Shown here in pieces: positions 69 to 5,258 of a DNA stretch of 64,000 nt. The notes below the pieces were generated by a model, which had not been told where the DNA came from, made no database searches, and was given only the letters and a program-made list of their open reading frames with translations. How positions within the stretch are numbered: position 1 is the stretch's first letter; each line of letters starts with the position of its first letter. The stretch covers positions 1 through 64,000 of the IMG/VR virus record IMGVR_UViG_3300047557_003310; one strand, written 5' to 3'. Both the position numbers and the translations under genes were made by a program. This DNA is from a virus.

Positions 69-221
69 ACAGGGTTAGCGTGGCTCACTGATCGTCATAG
101 AGCTTCTTGCTCTCCCCTTGTTGTTGATACAACTATAGGGCATCCAGGGTCTCATGGGGTGATGAGTGGACAGTTGTTTAACTGGCTGACATGTGGTTTT
201 TCTGAGTGATTTTGGTTTAAT
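69..221 (+). repeat. Structured leader, copy A
   Basis: The 5' block begins CAGGGTTAGCGTGGCTCAC at 70. The first hairpin is GAGC-TTCTT-GCTC (100-112). A second hairpin, CAGTT-GTTT-AACTG at 171-184, is followed by GCTGACA, a degraded form of the CACTGGCACAA box of the other copies. The copy lies between a terminator and the gene at 222. In the frame of the GTG inside the block it has in-frame stops (TGA and TAG), so it is not a conserved coding leader. Confidence 0.75.
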
Positions 222-617
222 ATGAACAAGTCGGAAATCCGTTTTCTTCTCATGACTGAACAGTATCATGGTCTCGGTGGTATCGAACTGATCGGAACTG
301 ATACCTTTAGGTATAAGGATCAAACGGCATTTCGTTATTGTTTCCAAACCTGGAAAGTCTTTAACATTGAGGAGAATGTGATTGATACTGATCGATTCTA
401 TGTGTGGGCTGATGCAGTAGATACAGCCTACAAGATTGCAGTGGAACATGTTTATCGTCCACTGAATGCACCTTATCATGAGGCAGTAGATTCAGGTGAA
501 GGTGGTGGTCGTTATGAAGTGAATCTCAATGAACAACATCGTGAAGTAGAGGTTGAAACTGATGAACAGTGGCACACTCTAATGTACGGTCATCGTGATG
601 ATTTTTACCTAGGTTAA
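222..617 (+). CDS. Hypothetical protein (131 aa), first accessory gene
   Basis: I do not recognise this protein. It starts MNKSEIRF and is acidic and soluble-looking, with many aromatic residues and no membrane segment or signal peptide. The middle part (VWADAVDTAYKIAVEHVYRP, about residues 67-86) looks like an alpha-helical segment. The ATG at 222 is the first in frame after leader copy A, and a terminator-like hairpin follows the stop at 628. The gene is thus a self-contained unit of leader, gene and terminator like its neighbours, which suggests an early accessory function. The function is unknown. Confidence 0.7.
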   Translation: MNKSEIRFLLMTEQYHGLGGIELIGTDTFRYKDQTAFRYCFQTWKVFNIEENVIDTDRFYVWADAVDTAYKIAVEHVYRPLNAPYHEAVDSGEGGGRYEVNLNEQHREVEVETDEQWHTLMYGHRDDFYLG

Positions 618-627
618 TAGTATTGCT

Positions 628-654
628 GGGAGTCTGACAGTATCACAGGCTCCC
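628..654 (+). terminator. Terminator-like hairpin after the first gene
   Basis: GGGAGTCTG pairs with CAGGCTCCC (9 bp with one G-U) around a 9-nt loop. The T-rich stretch starts about 7 nt later (ATTTTTATATTTTTTT), so the U tract is displaced. Confidence 0.6.
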
Positions 655-712
655 ACAAGATTTTTATATTTTTTTCGTATTTTTTCGTTTTAATTTAGTA
701 TTTCGTATTTTT

Positions 713-907
713 TGGCAGGGTGATTGTGGCTTACTGATCGTCATCGAGCTTCTTGCTCTCCCTTGGTTGTTGAATACAGTCTACCATGCCATGAGACGCA
801 CAGACCACCTGATGACCATAAGGTGTGCCACTTTTTTTCTGGCACAAGACGCTTGACCAGTTCCACAGGGGGATGAGAGACTATAGAAGTCGAAAGGGAT
901 TCCACCC
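713..907 (+). repeat. Structured leader, copy B
   Basis: The 5' block (GGCAGGGTGATTGTGGCTTA at 714) is followed by hairpin GAGC-TTCTT-GCTC (746-758). The second hairpin is GTGCCA, a T-rich loop, then TGGCAC (825-845), ending in CTGGCACAA at 839-847. The next start codon is 60 nt further on, as in copy C. The frame from the internal GTG is stopped by TGA after three codons. Confidence 0.8.
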
Positions 908-1075
908 ATGGCAGTCGATTCGCTCTCCAAGACCATCTACCGTCAGCTGTTCACTGAAGAGCAATGGCTGATGATCTACATGATGATCGAAAATGCCTAC
1001 GATGATGATGTGTGGAGTCATGGCGATGCTGATGTCATTCGCAGAAAGATTCGCCTCTTATGTGATTTCATTTGA
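908..1075 (+). CDS. Small hypothetical protein (55 aa)
   Basis: The reading frame runs from ATG 908 (MAVDSLSKTIYRQL) to TGA 1073-1075. The peptide looks like one or two amphipathic helices (TEEQWLMIYMMIENAYDDD) with a C-terminal RRKIRLLCDFI. I do not recognise it. It is supported by its place between leader copy B and a strong terminator (1099-1121), the same layout as the neighbouring genes. AAGGGATT just upstream may act as a weak ribosome binding site. Confidence 0.65.
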   Translation: MAVDSLSKTIYRQLFTEEQWLMIYMMIENAYDDDVWSHGDADVIRRKIRLLCDFI

Positions 1076-1098
1076 TAATTATTAATAATAATTATCAT

Positions 1099-1121
1099 AA
1101 GGATCTTATGATCCTTTTTTT
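1099..1121 (+). terminator. Intrinsic terminator
   Basis: AAGGATC, loop TTAT, GATCCTT, then an uninterrupted T run. The stem is identical to that of the terminator at 23-43, so the terminators in this island also look duplicated. Confidence 0.85.
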
Positions 1122-1145
1122 ATTCTTTATACTTAACTATTTCAT

Positions 1146-1340
1146 GGCAGGGTTAGCGTGGCTTACTTATCGTCAACGAGCTTCGTGCTCTCCTCTTCTC
1201 TTGTTGCTAACAGTCTAGCAGGTCGTGGGGTCGTTTCAACCGATTCTGGTCAAATTGGGACAGTTCGACCACTGGCACAAGCTGGTTGGATCTGGTCGGC
1301 ATCTGGACCCATACTAGGTGAGTCCCAAGCAATCCGAGCC
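1146..1340 (+). repeat. Structured leader, copy C
   Basis: The block starts GGCAGGGTTAGCGTGGC at 1146. The hairpin is GAGC-TTCGT-GCTC (1178-1190). The second hairpin, CAGT-TCGACC-ACTG with box CACTGGCACAA, lies at 1261-1280, exactly 60 nt before ATG 1341. The leader ends with CAATCCGAGCC directly before the ATG, like the ends before 2063 and 4557. Here the frame happens to be open from GTG 1158 into the downstream gene, which would add 61 residues; that extension is leader sequence, not protein homology. Confidence 0.85.
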
Positions 1341-1820
1341 ATGCTCACCGGATCCGAACTCATCTCCAAGGTCACCGAGCTGCAGCAGCAGAACGCCACA
1401 CGTACTGACATTGTGCTTGGCTGCGGCTATGTCAAGCCTGACGGCAAGGCTGCCTATGTGGCCTTCTACGAAGCTCTGATCGAGGCTAAGACGCCACAAT
1501 GGCAAAAGCAAAAGGAAGAGATCGAGACAGAGATCGAGTTCGATGATGAGGAGCAAGAGGAGCAATTCCTGGAGCTTTGTGTCAATTATCCCCAGAAAGC
1601 TCTGGAGATTTACTATGAAAACATCGGCAACTTCGATGAGTTCGAAGAAGCTTACCAAGGAGAATACGATAGCGAGGCGCACTTTACTGAGGAAATTATC
1701 GCTGACATCTCTGAGCGTCAACTTCCCAGCTGGATTGTTGTAGATTATCAGGCAACATGGGATAGTTCAATGCGCTTTGATTACTGGGAGGAGGATAACT
1801 ACTTCTTCCAGAACATGTGA
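1341..1820 (+). CDS. ardA: ArdA-like antirestriction protein
   Basis: A protein of 159 aa, very acidic in the middle. The C-terminal half shows the ArdA pattern: a helix with YYENIGNFDEFEEAYQGEYD (about residues 90-109), then LPSWIVVDYQATWDSSMRFD and a final NYFFQNM, matching the usual ending of ArdA-family proteins (conserved W/D, ATA-like helix, Y/F-F-x-N terminus). Known ArdA proteins are dimeric DNA mimics that bind and inhibit type I restriction enzymes; the acidic run EEIETEIEFDDEEQEEQ fits DNA mimicry. The N-terminal GYVKPDGKAAYVAFYEAL is a short module often seen in cyanophage proteins of this class. I chose ATG 1341 because the leader family ends there; a GTG at 1158 is in frame but lies in the repeat. 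Inferred role: protection of incoming phage DNA. Confidence 0.78.
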   Translation: MLTGSELISKVTELQQQNATRTDIVLGCGYVKPDGKAAYVAFYEALIEAKTPQWQKQKEEIETEIEFDDEEQEEQFLELCVNYPQKALEIYYENIGNFDEFEEAYQGEYDSEAHFTEEIIADISERQLPSWIVVDYQATWDSSMRFDYWEEDNYFFQNM

Positions 1821-1827
1821 TAGATTT

Positions 1828-1854
1828 AGAGGGGAATCTTTCCCCTCTTTTTTT
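1828..1854 (+). terminator. Intrinsic terminator after ardA
   Basis: AGAGGGGAA, loop TCT, TTCCCCTCT followed by seven T. It separates ardA from leader copy D. Confidence 0.88.
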
Positions 1855-1878
1855 ATACTTTTCTTTTTTATATTTCAT

Positions 1879-2062
1879 GGCAGGGTGACTGTGGCTTACT
1901 TTTCGTCATCGGCCTTCTTAGCCTCGGTTCGCTTGTGAGTTAATTCTAGCAGGCAGCCTCCCCAGCTATGGCCGCGGCAACCAGTTCGATCACTGGCACA
2001 AGGCGGCTAGACCGCTGGTTTTGGTGGCTGGTATCTTTAAGGAGTCGAGGCAATCAAGCCCA
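1879..2062 (+). repeat. Structured leader, copy D
   Basis: The block starts GGCAGGGTGACTGTGGCTTA at 1879. The first hairpin has changed both arms relative to copies A-C (GGC-CTTCTTA-GCC, 1911-1923). The second hairpin is CCAGT-TCGATC-ACTGG with CACTGGCACAA (1981-2001), 61 nt before ATG 2063. It ends GCAATCAAGCCCA-ATG, similar to copy C. Confidence 0.85.
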
Positions 2063-2524
2063 ATGAACACCGACCTCCAGGCCATCACTGCTCAACTCGC
2101 CACTGTAGCAGCATCGCTGAACACTCTACAAGAGGCTTTGGCATTGCTCCAGGAGCAGCAGGCATCCATCCCCACCAACAACGCTCTGGCGCCTTTCTCG
2201 GCTTTCCTGATGGTGGAGCTGACGCCTTACTTCGGTGGCACAATGGCCAAGGCAATTGTTGATAGTCTGAACCGCTGCAATCAACGCGGAGACTATCGCT
2301 ACTTCATCCCAATGTATGAAATCGCAGCTGATGATCTGCAAAAGCGTCAACTGCTGAAACTCGTTTCTGCTATTCATCGTTACAAATTCGTCTACAGTAA
2401 GCAACACAATCACCCCCAAAAGTATAGCCTCAAGTCTGACATTAAATACGCAAAAGCTTGTTCCCATTGTGGTGCACTTGCTTCTGTTCTTTATGATCGT
2501 CTCGTGAAAGAAGGTCTGTTCTGA
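2063..2524 (+). CDS. Hypothetical protein (153 aa) with N-terminal coiled coil
   Basis: Residues 1-38 (MNTDLQAITAQLATVAASL...LQEALALLQEQQ) form a heptad-like coiled coil. A helical middle follows (FLMVELTPYFGGTMAKAIVDSL), then a C-terminal region with KACSHCGALASVLYDRL. The single CSHC motif could bind a metal together with upstream histidines (KQHNHPQK), but a complete zinc site cannot be shown. I do not recognise the family. The start is ATG 2063, placed by the leader; the frame is open a little further upstream into the leader. The stop overlaps the next small gene (TGATG). Confidence 0.72.
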   Translation: MNTDLQAITAQLATVAASLNTLQEALALLQEQQASIPTNNALAPFSAFLMVELTPYFGGTMAKAIVDSLNRCNQRGDYRYFIPMYEIAADDLQKRQLLKLVSAIHRYKFVYSKQHNHPQKYSLKSDIKYAKACSHCGALASVLYDRLVKEGLF

Positions 2525-2652
2525 TGAAGATCTTTGTCTTTGCACTGGTTGCTGTTACTTTCAGCAACACACTGGTTGCATCTTTCAAGGCAGCCAAAAC
2601 CTTAGATGCTAAGGTTGCAGATCTCACTTGTCAAGTTACCGAACGATGCTGA
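2524..2652 (+). CDS. Small membrane or secreted peptide (42 aa)
   Basis: ATG 2524 overlaps the stop of the upstream gene. MKIFVFALVAVTFSNTLVAS is a typical hydrophobic N-terminus (signal peptide or single membrane anchor), followed by a short charged tail with two cysteines (TCQVTERC). The function is unknown. Translational coupling and the hydrophobic start support it; the short length keeps confidence moderate. Confidence 0.55.
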   Translation: MKIFVFALVAVTFSNTLVASFKAAKTLDAKVADLTCQVTERC

Positions 2653-2702
2653 TCTTTCTTTCGATTGTTGTTCGCTTTCACTTTCACCATATAGGCTAAC
2701 CT

Positions 2703-2837
2703 ATGGAAATCATGCAAACTTATGACATCCACACCAAAGAATTGATGTGGGCATATAATGACGGAAAAACCATTTGGTATTTTCAGTCTCATGAAGTACA
2801 ACAGTTTCTTGATGTTCGCCACAGGATTCTTCGATGA
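2703..2837 (+). CDS. Small hypothetical protein (44 aa)
   Basis: MEIMQTYDIHTKELMWAYND opens the peptide, followed by GKTIWYFQSHEVQQFLDVRH. It reads like a compact strand-strand-helix fold and has normal codon use. It is not recognised. Its stop overlaps the next start (ATGA at 2834), suggesting coupled translation in a run of three tiny genes downstream of the 2063 gene. Confidence 0.5.
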   Translation: MEIMQTYDIHTKELMWAYNDGKTIWYFQSHEVQQFLDVRHRILR

Positions 2838-2956
2838 TTGAACTACTCGCTGCTGCATTTATCATCGGTCAAGTAGAGATCGCTCCAGGTATTATCCGCA
2901 CAGAGTATCTCAATGAGGATCGTAAAGTTATCGTAGTGGAGGAAGATAGAGACTAG
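2834..2956 (+). CDS. Small hypothetical protein (40 aa)
   Basis: MIELLAAAFIIGQVEIAPGI has a hydrophobic N-terminal half; the remainder is acidic (YLNEDRKVIVVEEDRD). It starts at the ATGA overlap with the preceding gene and ends before a strong terminator (2983-3009), so it closes this transcription unit. The function is unknown. Confidence 0.5.
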   Translation: MIELLAAAFIIGQVEIAPGIIRTEYLNEDRKVIVVEEDRD

Positions 2957-2982
2957 GTTTCACGGTGCAATAGGCTCACACA

Positions 2983-3009
2983 GGGAGAGAGAAATCTCTC
3001 CCTTTTTTT
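2983..3009 (+). terminator. Intrinsic terminator
   Basis: GGGAGAGA, loop GAAA, TCTCTCCC, then seven T. It ends the 2063-2956 operon. Confidence 0.9.
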
Positions 3010-3035
3010 ATATTTTTTTTCGTTTTTTCGTATTC

Positions 3036-3130
3036 TTGTGCCAGCTGGCGAACCGGTACAGGATCTCGTGAGATGCCTCCAGAAGCCCCCACAAGGCGCT
3101 ACAATTACAGGGTCAACACAAAGACACCCC
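3036..3130 (+). repeat. Possible degenerate leader before the 72-aa gene
   Basis: The stretch lies after a terminator and the same T-rich run (TTTTTTTTCGTTTTTTCGTATT) that precedes copy B, but the CAGGGTTAGCG block is missing. TTGTGCCAGCTGGCG at 3036 contains TTGTGCCAG, the reverse complement of CTGGCACAA, in a small palindrome. This may be a truncated relative of the leader family. Confidence 0.35.
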
Positions 3131-3349
3131 ATGGCCGCCATTATCCCCGATCCCTGCCGCAAGTGGGTCAAAGGCACTCCCTACCGTACCGTGTGCAATG
3201 AGGTCTCAAAGGATGGTACAGTGATCGGTATCGGCACTATTGAGATCTGGGACTACGCTCGCGCAGTCGGTGTGTGCTATGCTTCACCACTACCTAAGCG
3301 TAAAGAACCGGACATTGGTGATCTTTTTCTCGAAATGTTCGGTGCCTGA
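3131..3349 (+). CDS. Hypothetical protein (72 aa)
   Basis: MAAIIPDPCRKWVKGTPYRT starts the protein. The middle (DGTVIGIGTIEIWDYARAVG) suggests two beta strands; the C-terminus is acidic and helical (DIGDLFLEMFGA). It is not recognised. The in-frame start at TTG 3038 lies in leader-like sequence, so ATG 3131 is preferred. A hairpin follows the stop. Confidence 0.6.
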   Translation: MAAIIPDPCRKWVKGTPYRTVCNEVSKDGTVIGIGTIEIWDYARAVGVCYASPLPKRKEPDIGDLFLEMFGA

Positions 3350-3360
3350 TTGAGTCTTAT

Positions 3361-3388
3361 GGGGATGATACCTTATGATATCATCCTC
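3361..3388 (+). terminator. Hairpin after the 72-aa gene
   Basis: GGATGATA pairs with TATCATCC, extendable by flanking G and T pairs, around a CCTTATGA loop. It is followed by ACATAAAAAA rather than a T run, so it may be a transcript-stabilising or bidirectional terminator. Confidence 0.5.
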
Positions 3389-3458
3389 ACATAAAAAACA
3401 AATTATAATTAAACAAATCTTATTATTCTTTTTTTATTCTTTATATCTTATTATTTTT

Positions 3459-3656
3459 TCGCAGGGTTAGCGTGGCTTACTTATCGTCAACGGCCTTCGT
3501 GGCCTCCTTTGCTTGTGAGATAATTCTACAGCATCGGGAGCCGATCCGCGAGACAATCCGCCAAATTAAGCCAGTTTGGCCACTGGCACAATGCGGCCAT
3601 GGCAGCTGGCGATCTGGGTTCAGAATGGCGGAGCAACCGCAACCAAGGGCGAAGCT
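3459..3656 (+). repeat. Structured leader, copy E
   Basis: The block GCAGGGTTAGCGTGGCTTAC starts at 3461 and is identical to copy C through GTCAACG. The hairpin is GGCC-TTCGT-GGCC (3492-3504): two base pairs differ from copy C and both are compensated. The second hairpin CCAGT-TTGGCC-ACTGG with CACTGGCACAA lies at 3571-3591. The following 65 nt resemble the 3' parts of C and D (GGAGCAACCGCAACCAAGGG before GTG 3657). Confidence 0.85.
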
Positions 3657-3902
3657 GTGACCTACAACCCCACACGCGATGCCGCAACCGCCGAGCACTT
3701 CAGCCGCTGGGCTGCCGAGGCTAAAACTCTCGACGCCTATTCTCTCCAGTATGTAATTAAAGACTGCAGAGAGGCTGCAGAAGCTATGGCTGGCTGGAAT
3801 CCTGTCCGTGAGGGTTTCTACATCGATCAGATGCTAACCTATGCTGCAGAGCTTAACTTGCGCAACTCTAAGTTACCTTTCGGCTTGCGCCATCGCATCT
3901 GA
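3657..3902 (+). CDS. Small conserved cyanophage-type protein (81 aa), GTG start
   Basis: The core SLQYVIKDCREAAEAMAG, followed by YIDQMLTYAAELNLR, has the pattern of a family of small helical proteins common in marine cyanophages and cyanobacteria (LxYxxKDCxxA...Y.DE...Y..EL); that family has no known function. Two starts are possible: ATG 3591, inside the conserved CACTGGCACAATG box, giving 103 aa; or GTG 3657, giving a protein beginning VTYNPTRDAATAEHF. I prefer 3657 because the 65 nt before it match the leader of the other genes and the spacing from the box (about 60 nt) is then the same. Confidence 0.62.
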   Translation: MTYNPTRDAATAEHFSRWAAEAKTLDAYSLQYVIKDCREAAEAMAGWNPVREGFYIDQMLTYAAELNLRNSKLPFGLRHRI

Positions 3903-4347: not shown

Positions 4348-4415
4348 TTAAAGTTTTATGTCAGGGGCGGCTGGCCTGGCCCCCCTGGCATGGTAGGATT
4401 GGTGAAACCGGTAGA

Positions 4416-4460
4416 GGGTCCGAAGCCCAGCGACGAAAGTGAGCCACGCTTACCCTGCCA
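4416..4460 (-). repeat. Structured leader block, copy F, inverted and orphan
   Basis: Read on the minus strand from 4460: GGCAGGGTAAGCGTGGCTCA, then a hairpin with a C(UUCG)G loop (GGGC-TTCG-G-A-CCC). The upstream CTATTTCAT (minus strand) equals the sequence before copy C. Further along the minus strand, CTACCATGCCA matches copy B. No minus-strand gene follows, so this copy is detached from any coding region and lies just upstream of the oppositely oriented gene at 4557. Confidence 0.8.
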
Positions 4461-4556
4461 TGAAATAGTAGTGTGACGGATTGTTACGGTTTGGCGATTC
4501 GAGCCACGGTGCCGCCTTCCTAGGTCCTACATTGGCGGAGCCAATGCAATCGAGCC

Positions 4557-5258
4557 ATGCAAACCCTCACCGTCACCGCAACCAACCTTGGCAGCGTCAG
4601 CCGCGCCGATGACATTGCACGCGCCGCGCGTCACGCCGCATTGAGCGATCCTCGCGTGATGACCGTCACCGCTCGTGGGGAGGTTGTAACCTTTGAAAGC
4701 CGCCTGAGCGATGACGCTGCGCAGGATCTCCTGCAGTGGTGTTCTGGCCGCTTTGCAAAGTCGCTATGGCAGCAGTCTCACGAGCGTGGCCTGTCGCCAG
4801 CTCAGATGGCCTGGGCTCACAAGCTCTCCACTGATCTTCTGCAGGCAGAATCTGCGGAGGATGATAACAACGAGCCCCAGTTTGAGCGGCTCTTCAGTGT
4901 ATTTCAGGCTGCAAAGTCTCGCGGATTGAAGCGACTCACACTGCGTTTAAGCGGTGTAAATGTAAAGCCAAACCGTGACAATACGGCATTATGGGTCACT
5001 TCTCAGACTGAGACTGAGGAAGGTAATTATGGTCCTCAGCCAAAGTATCTCGGTAAAATTACACCTAACCGTTTAGATTCTCGCCTCTCTGATGATATCA
5101 AGGCGGTGCTTTTAGAGGCCGCCAGTGATCCTCTCACCGCCGCAGTTCGCTACGGTAAAGAGACTGGCAGCTGTTCATGTTGCGGTCGTGATCTAACCAA
5201 TCCCCAATCAATCGAGCTGGGAATCGGTCCTATCTGCCGTGAAAAGTTCGGCCTCTAG
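4557..5258 (+). CDS. DUF6011-type zinc-finger protein
   Basis: A protein of 233 aa. The last 28 residues, starting CSCCGRDLTNPQSIELGIGP and continuing with ICREK, carry the DUF6011 signature: a CxCC...C zinc-ribbon-like motif with GIGPxC. This motif is common as a C-terminal module of phage and bacterial proteins with unknown or nucleic-acid-related roles. Residues 1-150 are helical; residues 120-170 (KRLTLRLSGVNVKPNRDNTALWVTS...YLGKI) look like a small beta domain that appears with DUF6011 in other phage proteins. ATG 4557 follows GCAATCGAGCC, the same 3' leader end as before 1341 and 2063. Its G+C-rich codon use contrasts with the structural genes further on. The function is unknown. Confidence 0.75.
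   Translation: MQTLTVTATNLGSVSRADDIARAARHAALSDPRVMTVTARGEVVTFESRLSDDAAQDLLQWCSGRFAKSLWQQSHERGLSPAQMAWAHKLSTDLLQAESAEDDNNEPQFERLFSVFQAAKSRGLKRLTLRLSGVNVKPNRDNTALWVTSQTETEEGNYGPQPKYLGKITPNRLDSRLSDDIKAVLLEAASDPLTAAVRYGKETGSCSCCGRDLTNPQSIELGIGPICREKFGL

Follow-up and report, generated by a model that had tools for sequence, protein, structure and literature searches.

Intergenic regions of a T4-like cyanophage contig carry a repeated unit that is likely to be a compact divergent regulatory cassette, in which one promoter (PR) would drive an accessory gene and a second promoter (PL) would drive a small RNA on the opposite strand. The conserved piece of the unit is probably a separate RNA gene on that other strand and not the leader of the gene behind it. 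The window analysed here is the first 64 kb of the 132,824-nt IMG/VR contig IMGVR_UViG_3300047557_003310, in which gp23 and psbA/psbD-type genes are found. The psbA-type match lies outside the window, in pieces with stop codons (112682–113383 and 113533–113763). A split psbA-type match is also present, in three pieces, in the cultured freshwater Synechococcus phage S-SRM01, and looks like an intron or other insertion.

The core of the conserved block, CAGGGTTAGCGTGGCTTAC, occurs on the + strand at 70, 716, 1148, 1881, and 3462 with 0–3 mismatches (copies A–E; Table 1), as a preliminary description of this DNA had reported. A sixth copy (F), overlooked there, lies on the − strand at 4457–4439. 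These six are all the copies in the whole contig; shuffled sequence gives no core matches, and no copies are expected by chance. A near-identical sister contig, IMGVR_UViG_3300044825_002669 (L022), reaches 4.2 kb past the left end of the window and holds one more copy, at position 3608, indicating that the array in the window is truncated by the contig end.

Other parts of the preliminary description also hold. A 4-bp hairpin follows the core in every window copy, comparison reveals no homology among genes A–E, and the ArdA-like assignment of gene C is borne out. The leader lengths, given as 153–198 nt, need one correction. The AAGTCG block and the orthologues of gene A align at 252; gene A therefore probably starts there and not at 222. 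Its upstream region is then ~182 nt, like those of the other units, so that the outlier of 153 nt disappears and all five upstream regions measure ~180–200 nt.

Table 1 Predicted features of the six units in the window (positions are those of the window).
Feature	Unit	Position	Strand	Details
Predicted small RNA core	A	59–125	−	Predicted 5′ end 125; PL −10 TATAGT (− strand) 132–137; hairpin 100–112
Predicted small RNA core	B	705–771	−	Predicted 5′ end 771; PL −10 TAGACT 778–783; hairpin 746–758
Predicted small RNA core	C	1137–1205	−	Predicted 5′ end 1205; PL TGC-TAGACT 1212–1217; hairpin 1178–1190
Predicted small RNA core	D	1870–1936	−	Predicted 5′ end 1936; PL TGC-TAGAAT 1943–1948; hairpin 1911–1923
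Predicted small RNA core	E	3451–3516	−	Predicted 5′ end 3516; PL TAGAAT 3523–3528; hairpin 3492–3504
Predicted small RNA	F	4406–4468	+	PL TGG-TAGGAT 4394–4399; hairpin 4416–4428; directed at DUF6011 gene
Palindrome TGTGCCA...TGGCACA	B	824–846		Between the two promoters of the unit
Operator-like site	C	1261–1281		CAGTTCGACCACTGGCACAAG
Operator-like site	D	1982–2002		
Operator-like site	E	3572–3592		
Predicted PR	A	216–233	+	TTTAAT, then AAGTCG start region
Predicted PR	B	882–892	+	TATAGA + AGTCG
Predicted PR	C	1310–1324	+	CATACT + GAGTC
Predicted PR	D	2032–2047	+	TATCTT + GGAGTCG
Predicted PR	E	3621–3633	+	CAGAAT + GCGGAG; weak, poor −10; orthologue L010 has TAGGAT
Gene	A	252–617	+	121 aa with the probable corrected start; no family
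Gene	B	908–1075	+	55 aa
Gene	C	1341–1820	+	159 aa; resembles anti-restriction (ArdA-like) PHROG
Gene	D	2063–2524	+	153 aa
Gene	E	3657–3902	+	81 aa; GTG start
Gene after copy F	F	4557–5258	+	233 aa; DUF6011

The element is widespread among T4-like cyanophages. A pattern scan of IMG/VR finds the block as it occurs in the window (window type) in 13 further contigs, a few of them near duplicates, with up to 12 copies each, clustered within ~10 kb and in every case confined to a single region of small genes. A covariance model of the block gives a weak match in S-SRM01, and inspection of this locus reveals the entire architecture with a different hairpin. The pattern shared by both, TATTTYATGGCAGG-N-GTGGC, matches at least 119 IMG/VR stretches, among them the window-type loci already found and a small number of chance matches. 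From these, 79 copies of a distant type (1–4 per contig) were retained for analysis. A model built from the distant type alone recovers all six window copies, A–E on the − strand and F on the + strand, indicating that the two types are homologous. In IMG/VR, relatives thus occur in more than 100 stretches of T4-like cyanophages; among public phage records, S-SRM01 carries two copies, and the metagenome-assembled DSL-LC03 also has the element. Marine phage Syn33, Dishui Lake phage DSL-LC02, and plasmids have no copies. In GTDB genomes, the window-type pattern has no match and the wide-type pattern has six, in non-cyanobacterial records and at about chance expectation. Rfam covariance models give no match at the gathering threshold and only chance-level matches at E ≤ 1.

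The hairpin covaries, and its base pairs assign it to the strand opposite to the genes. Read on that strand, 272 of 272 base-pair cells are canonical in the 68 window-type copies and 390 of 390 in the 79 distant-type copies; because the copies are related, such counts exceed the number of independent changes, but the bias points the same way throughout both types. Read on the gene strand, 89.3% of the window-type cells are canonical. The non-Watson–Crick cells of pairs 1–4 on the gene strand are A·C or C·A only (34 cells, 29 of the window type and 5 of the distant type) and never G·T, and pair 5 of the distant type is A·C in 60 of 79 copies. All of these exceptions become G·U on the opposite strand, and the hairpin and its strand are predicted with high confidence. 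In the distant type, all five pairs vary on both sides, with 13 further pair types (stems include GGGA/TCCC, GTGC/GCAC, GCGG/CCGC, and GGCAGC/GCTGCC, around a nearly constant loop); none of 500 shuffles scores as high for cells paired or for covariation, and RNAalifold, unaided, proposes the identical helix on the opposite strand. The sense-strand consensus fold of the window copies yields no useful helix. Whole-element folding energy (MFE) shows no excess on either strand, suggesting little secondary structure beyond the single hairpin. The loop differs between the types, reading NNGAA in window-type and RRGGUA/C in distant-type copies, while the flanks are common to both, as if a binding partner had switched between phage groups.

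A predicted promoter is positioned to transcribe this strand. A −10 box, TANNNT, is present on the opposite strand in 142 of 147 copies (67 of 68 window type, 75 of 79 distant type), 25–30 nt before the hairpin and on the same strand as the RNA. Among copies with a TANNNTA anchor site, the position 7 nt downstream of the box is an A in 35 of 35 of the window type and ~97% of the distant type. TGn precedes the box in 77 of 139 copies and no −35 box is enriched, which fits extended −10 promoters. The predicted RNA would start near ACAA, in the stretch that separates the block from the gene, run leftward with the gene behind it, and be ~70 nt long or more (at least 65–70 nt); it has no clear terminator. 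The element thus appears to combine its own promoter with a conserved secondary structure, as expected of a phage small regulatory RNA.

The same strand-specific folding would be seen if the hairpin formed in single-stranded DNA, as an attC-like site of recombination or replication, since this would also favour G·T on one strand. Such a site would agree with the presence of one unit per gene cassette and with two contigs in which copies are more alike within than between contigs. However, the promoter geometry is conserved on the same strand, and the stems are just 4–6 bp, while the loop and the long single-stranded flanks stay constant. We consider a DNA hairpin very unlikely.

A second, sense-directed −10 box is located near each ATG; in window-type copies, GGAGTCG or a variant of it comes next. 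Counted from the left end of the block, a scan for the best promoter peaks at ~155–170 nt in the sense direction and at ~72–80 nt in the antisense direction; it also gave matches in the AT-rich left edge. We regard the two divergent promoters, PL and PR, as predicted with good confidence. The sequence predicts that transcription of the gene starts downstream of the block, and the gene mRNA probably begins ~20–40 nt before the ATG, so that it would not contain the conserved block. The start region of the DUF6011 gene (4528–4556, TGGCGGAGC.A) resembles that of unit E (3621–3656), suggesting that a PR of its own is probably located downstream of copy F.

The preliminary description had assigned the block to the mRNA of the downstream gene, as the structured 5′ portion of a sense leader, which would call for a promoter at TATTTTATGG. 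TATTT-TATGG is indeed conserved immediately before the block, and a start there would give a leader of 180–200 nt. However, A·C without G·T in the sense hairpins is the opposite of what a sense RNA permits. The −10 box points the same way: 37 copies retain solely the opposite-strand reading, and none retains solely the sense reading. In addition, a separate promoter adjoins each ATG, and copy F, read in the sense direction, faces away from any sense gene. A sense leader is therefore improbable, and covariation with its G·U statistics, together with the promoter geometry, places the structure on the opposite strand. The claim of an undescribed regulatory RNA element stands in that the element is reused, structured, and without an Rfam match, but not as part of the mRNA leader of a gene. 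A sense-strand leader peptide encoded by the block was rejected as well, given an in-frame TGA, indels of 1–2 nt, and a start codon that is not kept.

A palindromic site accompanies the promoters in many units. TGTGCCA...TGGCACA is found with no more than three mismatches in 49 of 78 distant-type and 32 of 68 window-type copies, versus 4% of shuffles. Related palindromic sites stand before promoters in marine phages, e.g., Syn33. At 3036–3111, the window also contains TTGTGCCAGCTGGCGAACCGGTACA with TACAAT ~40 nt further on, the operator-plus-promoter layout of marine cyanophages, here without an RNA unit. Since promoters flank it and a palindrome lies close by, the whole element might be a promoter and operator that functions purely as DNA, its inverted repeat being a protein-binding dyad. 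However, pairing is preserved across at least 18 different stem sequences, whereas a dyad-binding protein would need constant arms, making this reading highly improbable.

The favoured reading, a divergent cassette with an opposite-strand small RNA, may operate as follows. PR, of the σ70 type, would drive the accessory gene from ~20–40 nt before its ATG, and in most units TGTGCCA...TGGCACA would serve as an operator-like site upstream of PR. Beyond this site, PL, often an extended −10 promoter (TGn-TANNNT), would fire the opposite way. The resulting small RNA would begin near ACAA and form a hairpin of 4–6 bp with a free stem sequence and a nearly constant loop, followed by a constant single-stranded part, GACGA...GCCAC...CCUGCC. 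It would head for the 3′ end and terminator of the preceding gene. The RNA sequence is constant whichever gene adjoins it, so we infer that it acts in trans; its target could be a protein or an RNA of the host or the phage, and contact might be made by the loop or by the C-rich 3′ part.

Our confidence in any function of the RNA is low. Pairing of the RNA with mRNA start regions is no better than with shuffles; TCGTCA, complementary to TGACGA of the RNA, is found in 12 of 43 tested start regions. In contigs L009 and L019, many gene start regions read GGAGTCGTCAGGGATTCC, whose GTCGTCA complements TGACGAC in the predicted small RNA, which is suggestive but not significant overall. A pseudoknot between the loop and the 3′ part of the RNA scored no better than shuffled partners.

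Second in likelihood to a trans-acting RNA is a reading in which the element acts in cis: placed at the beginning of a long leftward transcript, it would control transcription into the preceding cassette by a logic comparable to put/nut antitermination or pausing. In favour of this reading, the hairpin lies 15–35 nt past the predicted start between constant flanks, and most units face a terminator-like stem-loop. However, the transcript would be antisense to its neighbours in most units, and the orientation of the unit to the same gene can flip. We consider cis action unlikely.

The entire unit (terminator, RNA, operator, and promoter) may be copied and swapped between genes. In the two most copy-rich contigs, likeness is higher within than between contigs (0.85 versus 0.79 and 0.87 versus 0.82), whereas in the other four contigs compared it differs little or not at all. 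In addition, the RNA unit is found in either orientation relative to the same DUF6011 gene. From both observations, we infer that the unit spreads with genes by recombination. In accordance, the element behaves as a unit travelling among cyanophage accessory genes, one of the possibilities raised in the preliminary description, and the covariance-model search it proposed found relatives and RNA covariation outside this genome. Tentatively, the units might represent an undescribed family of phage small RNAs on a self-spreading promoter cassette, such that each new early gene brings a copy of the RNA gene, the RNA dose grows as accessory genes accumulate, and a shared target, in the host or the phage, might be silenced or sequestered by it.

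If the proposed cassette is right, widespread freshwater T4-like cyanophages carry a multi-copy small RNA that existing annotation has overlooked, located between their most poorly understood genes. The main text of the S-SRM01 paper mentions neither promoters nor non-coding RNA, and the reading supplies exact 5′-end predictions for this cultured phage. From the alignment, the small RNAs of S-SRM01 (MW015081.1) would have − strand 5′ ends at ~90,205 and ~88,655, with + strand starts ~20–40 nt ahead of the downstream ATGs. The reading would also provide a specific entry point for studying how these phages gain and regulate accessory genes. The element further serves as a worked example of how weighing G·U against A·C cells can move an apparent leader to the other strand.

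Structured cyanophage RNAs are known from comparative genomics, namely manA, wcaG, and PhotoRC-II (Weinberg 2010, PMC2864571). All three motifs are in Rfam, and manA and wcaG are mainly sense 5′-UTR elements of metabolic genes in marine phages (PMC2864571). Unlike these, the element described here matches no Rfam model, and its predicted RNA is divergent from its gene. CfrI is an antisense RNA of ~225 nt from the psbA 3′ region of marine cyanophage S-PM2 (PMC12197685). It and the RNA predicted here are alike as non-coding RNAs of T4-like cyanophages that run against neighbouring genes. Whereas CfrI comes from one locus, linked to psbA and to a homing endonuclease, the predicted RNA is ~70 nt or more and multi-copy, with its own covarying hairpin and promoter.

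The closest parallel is the PeSL (promoter-early stem-loop) cassette, reportedly described by Arbiol in 2010 and Comeau in 2014. In a later account (PMC4503421), PeSLs are mobile cassettes of T4-type phages that consist of a promoter and a stem-loop and are thought to mediate shuffling, and cyanophage S-PM2 is without the high PeSL density of other T4-like phages. Judged by its described architecture, a PeSL resembles the units in having an intergenic terminator-like stem-loop and an early-type (σ70-like) promoter, and in occurring in several copies on unrelated genes in hypervariable small-gene regions. What the units described here have in addition is a predicted small RNA on the opposite strand, whose hairpin covaries, and in many cases a palindromic site. 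The element may thus be a variant of the PeSL cassette that carries a new RNA family, and, if so, it would add an opposite-strand RNA to the PeSL idea.
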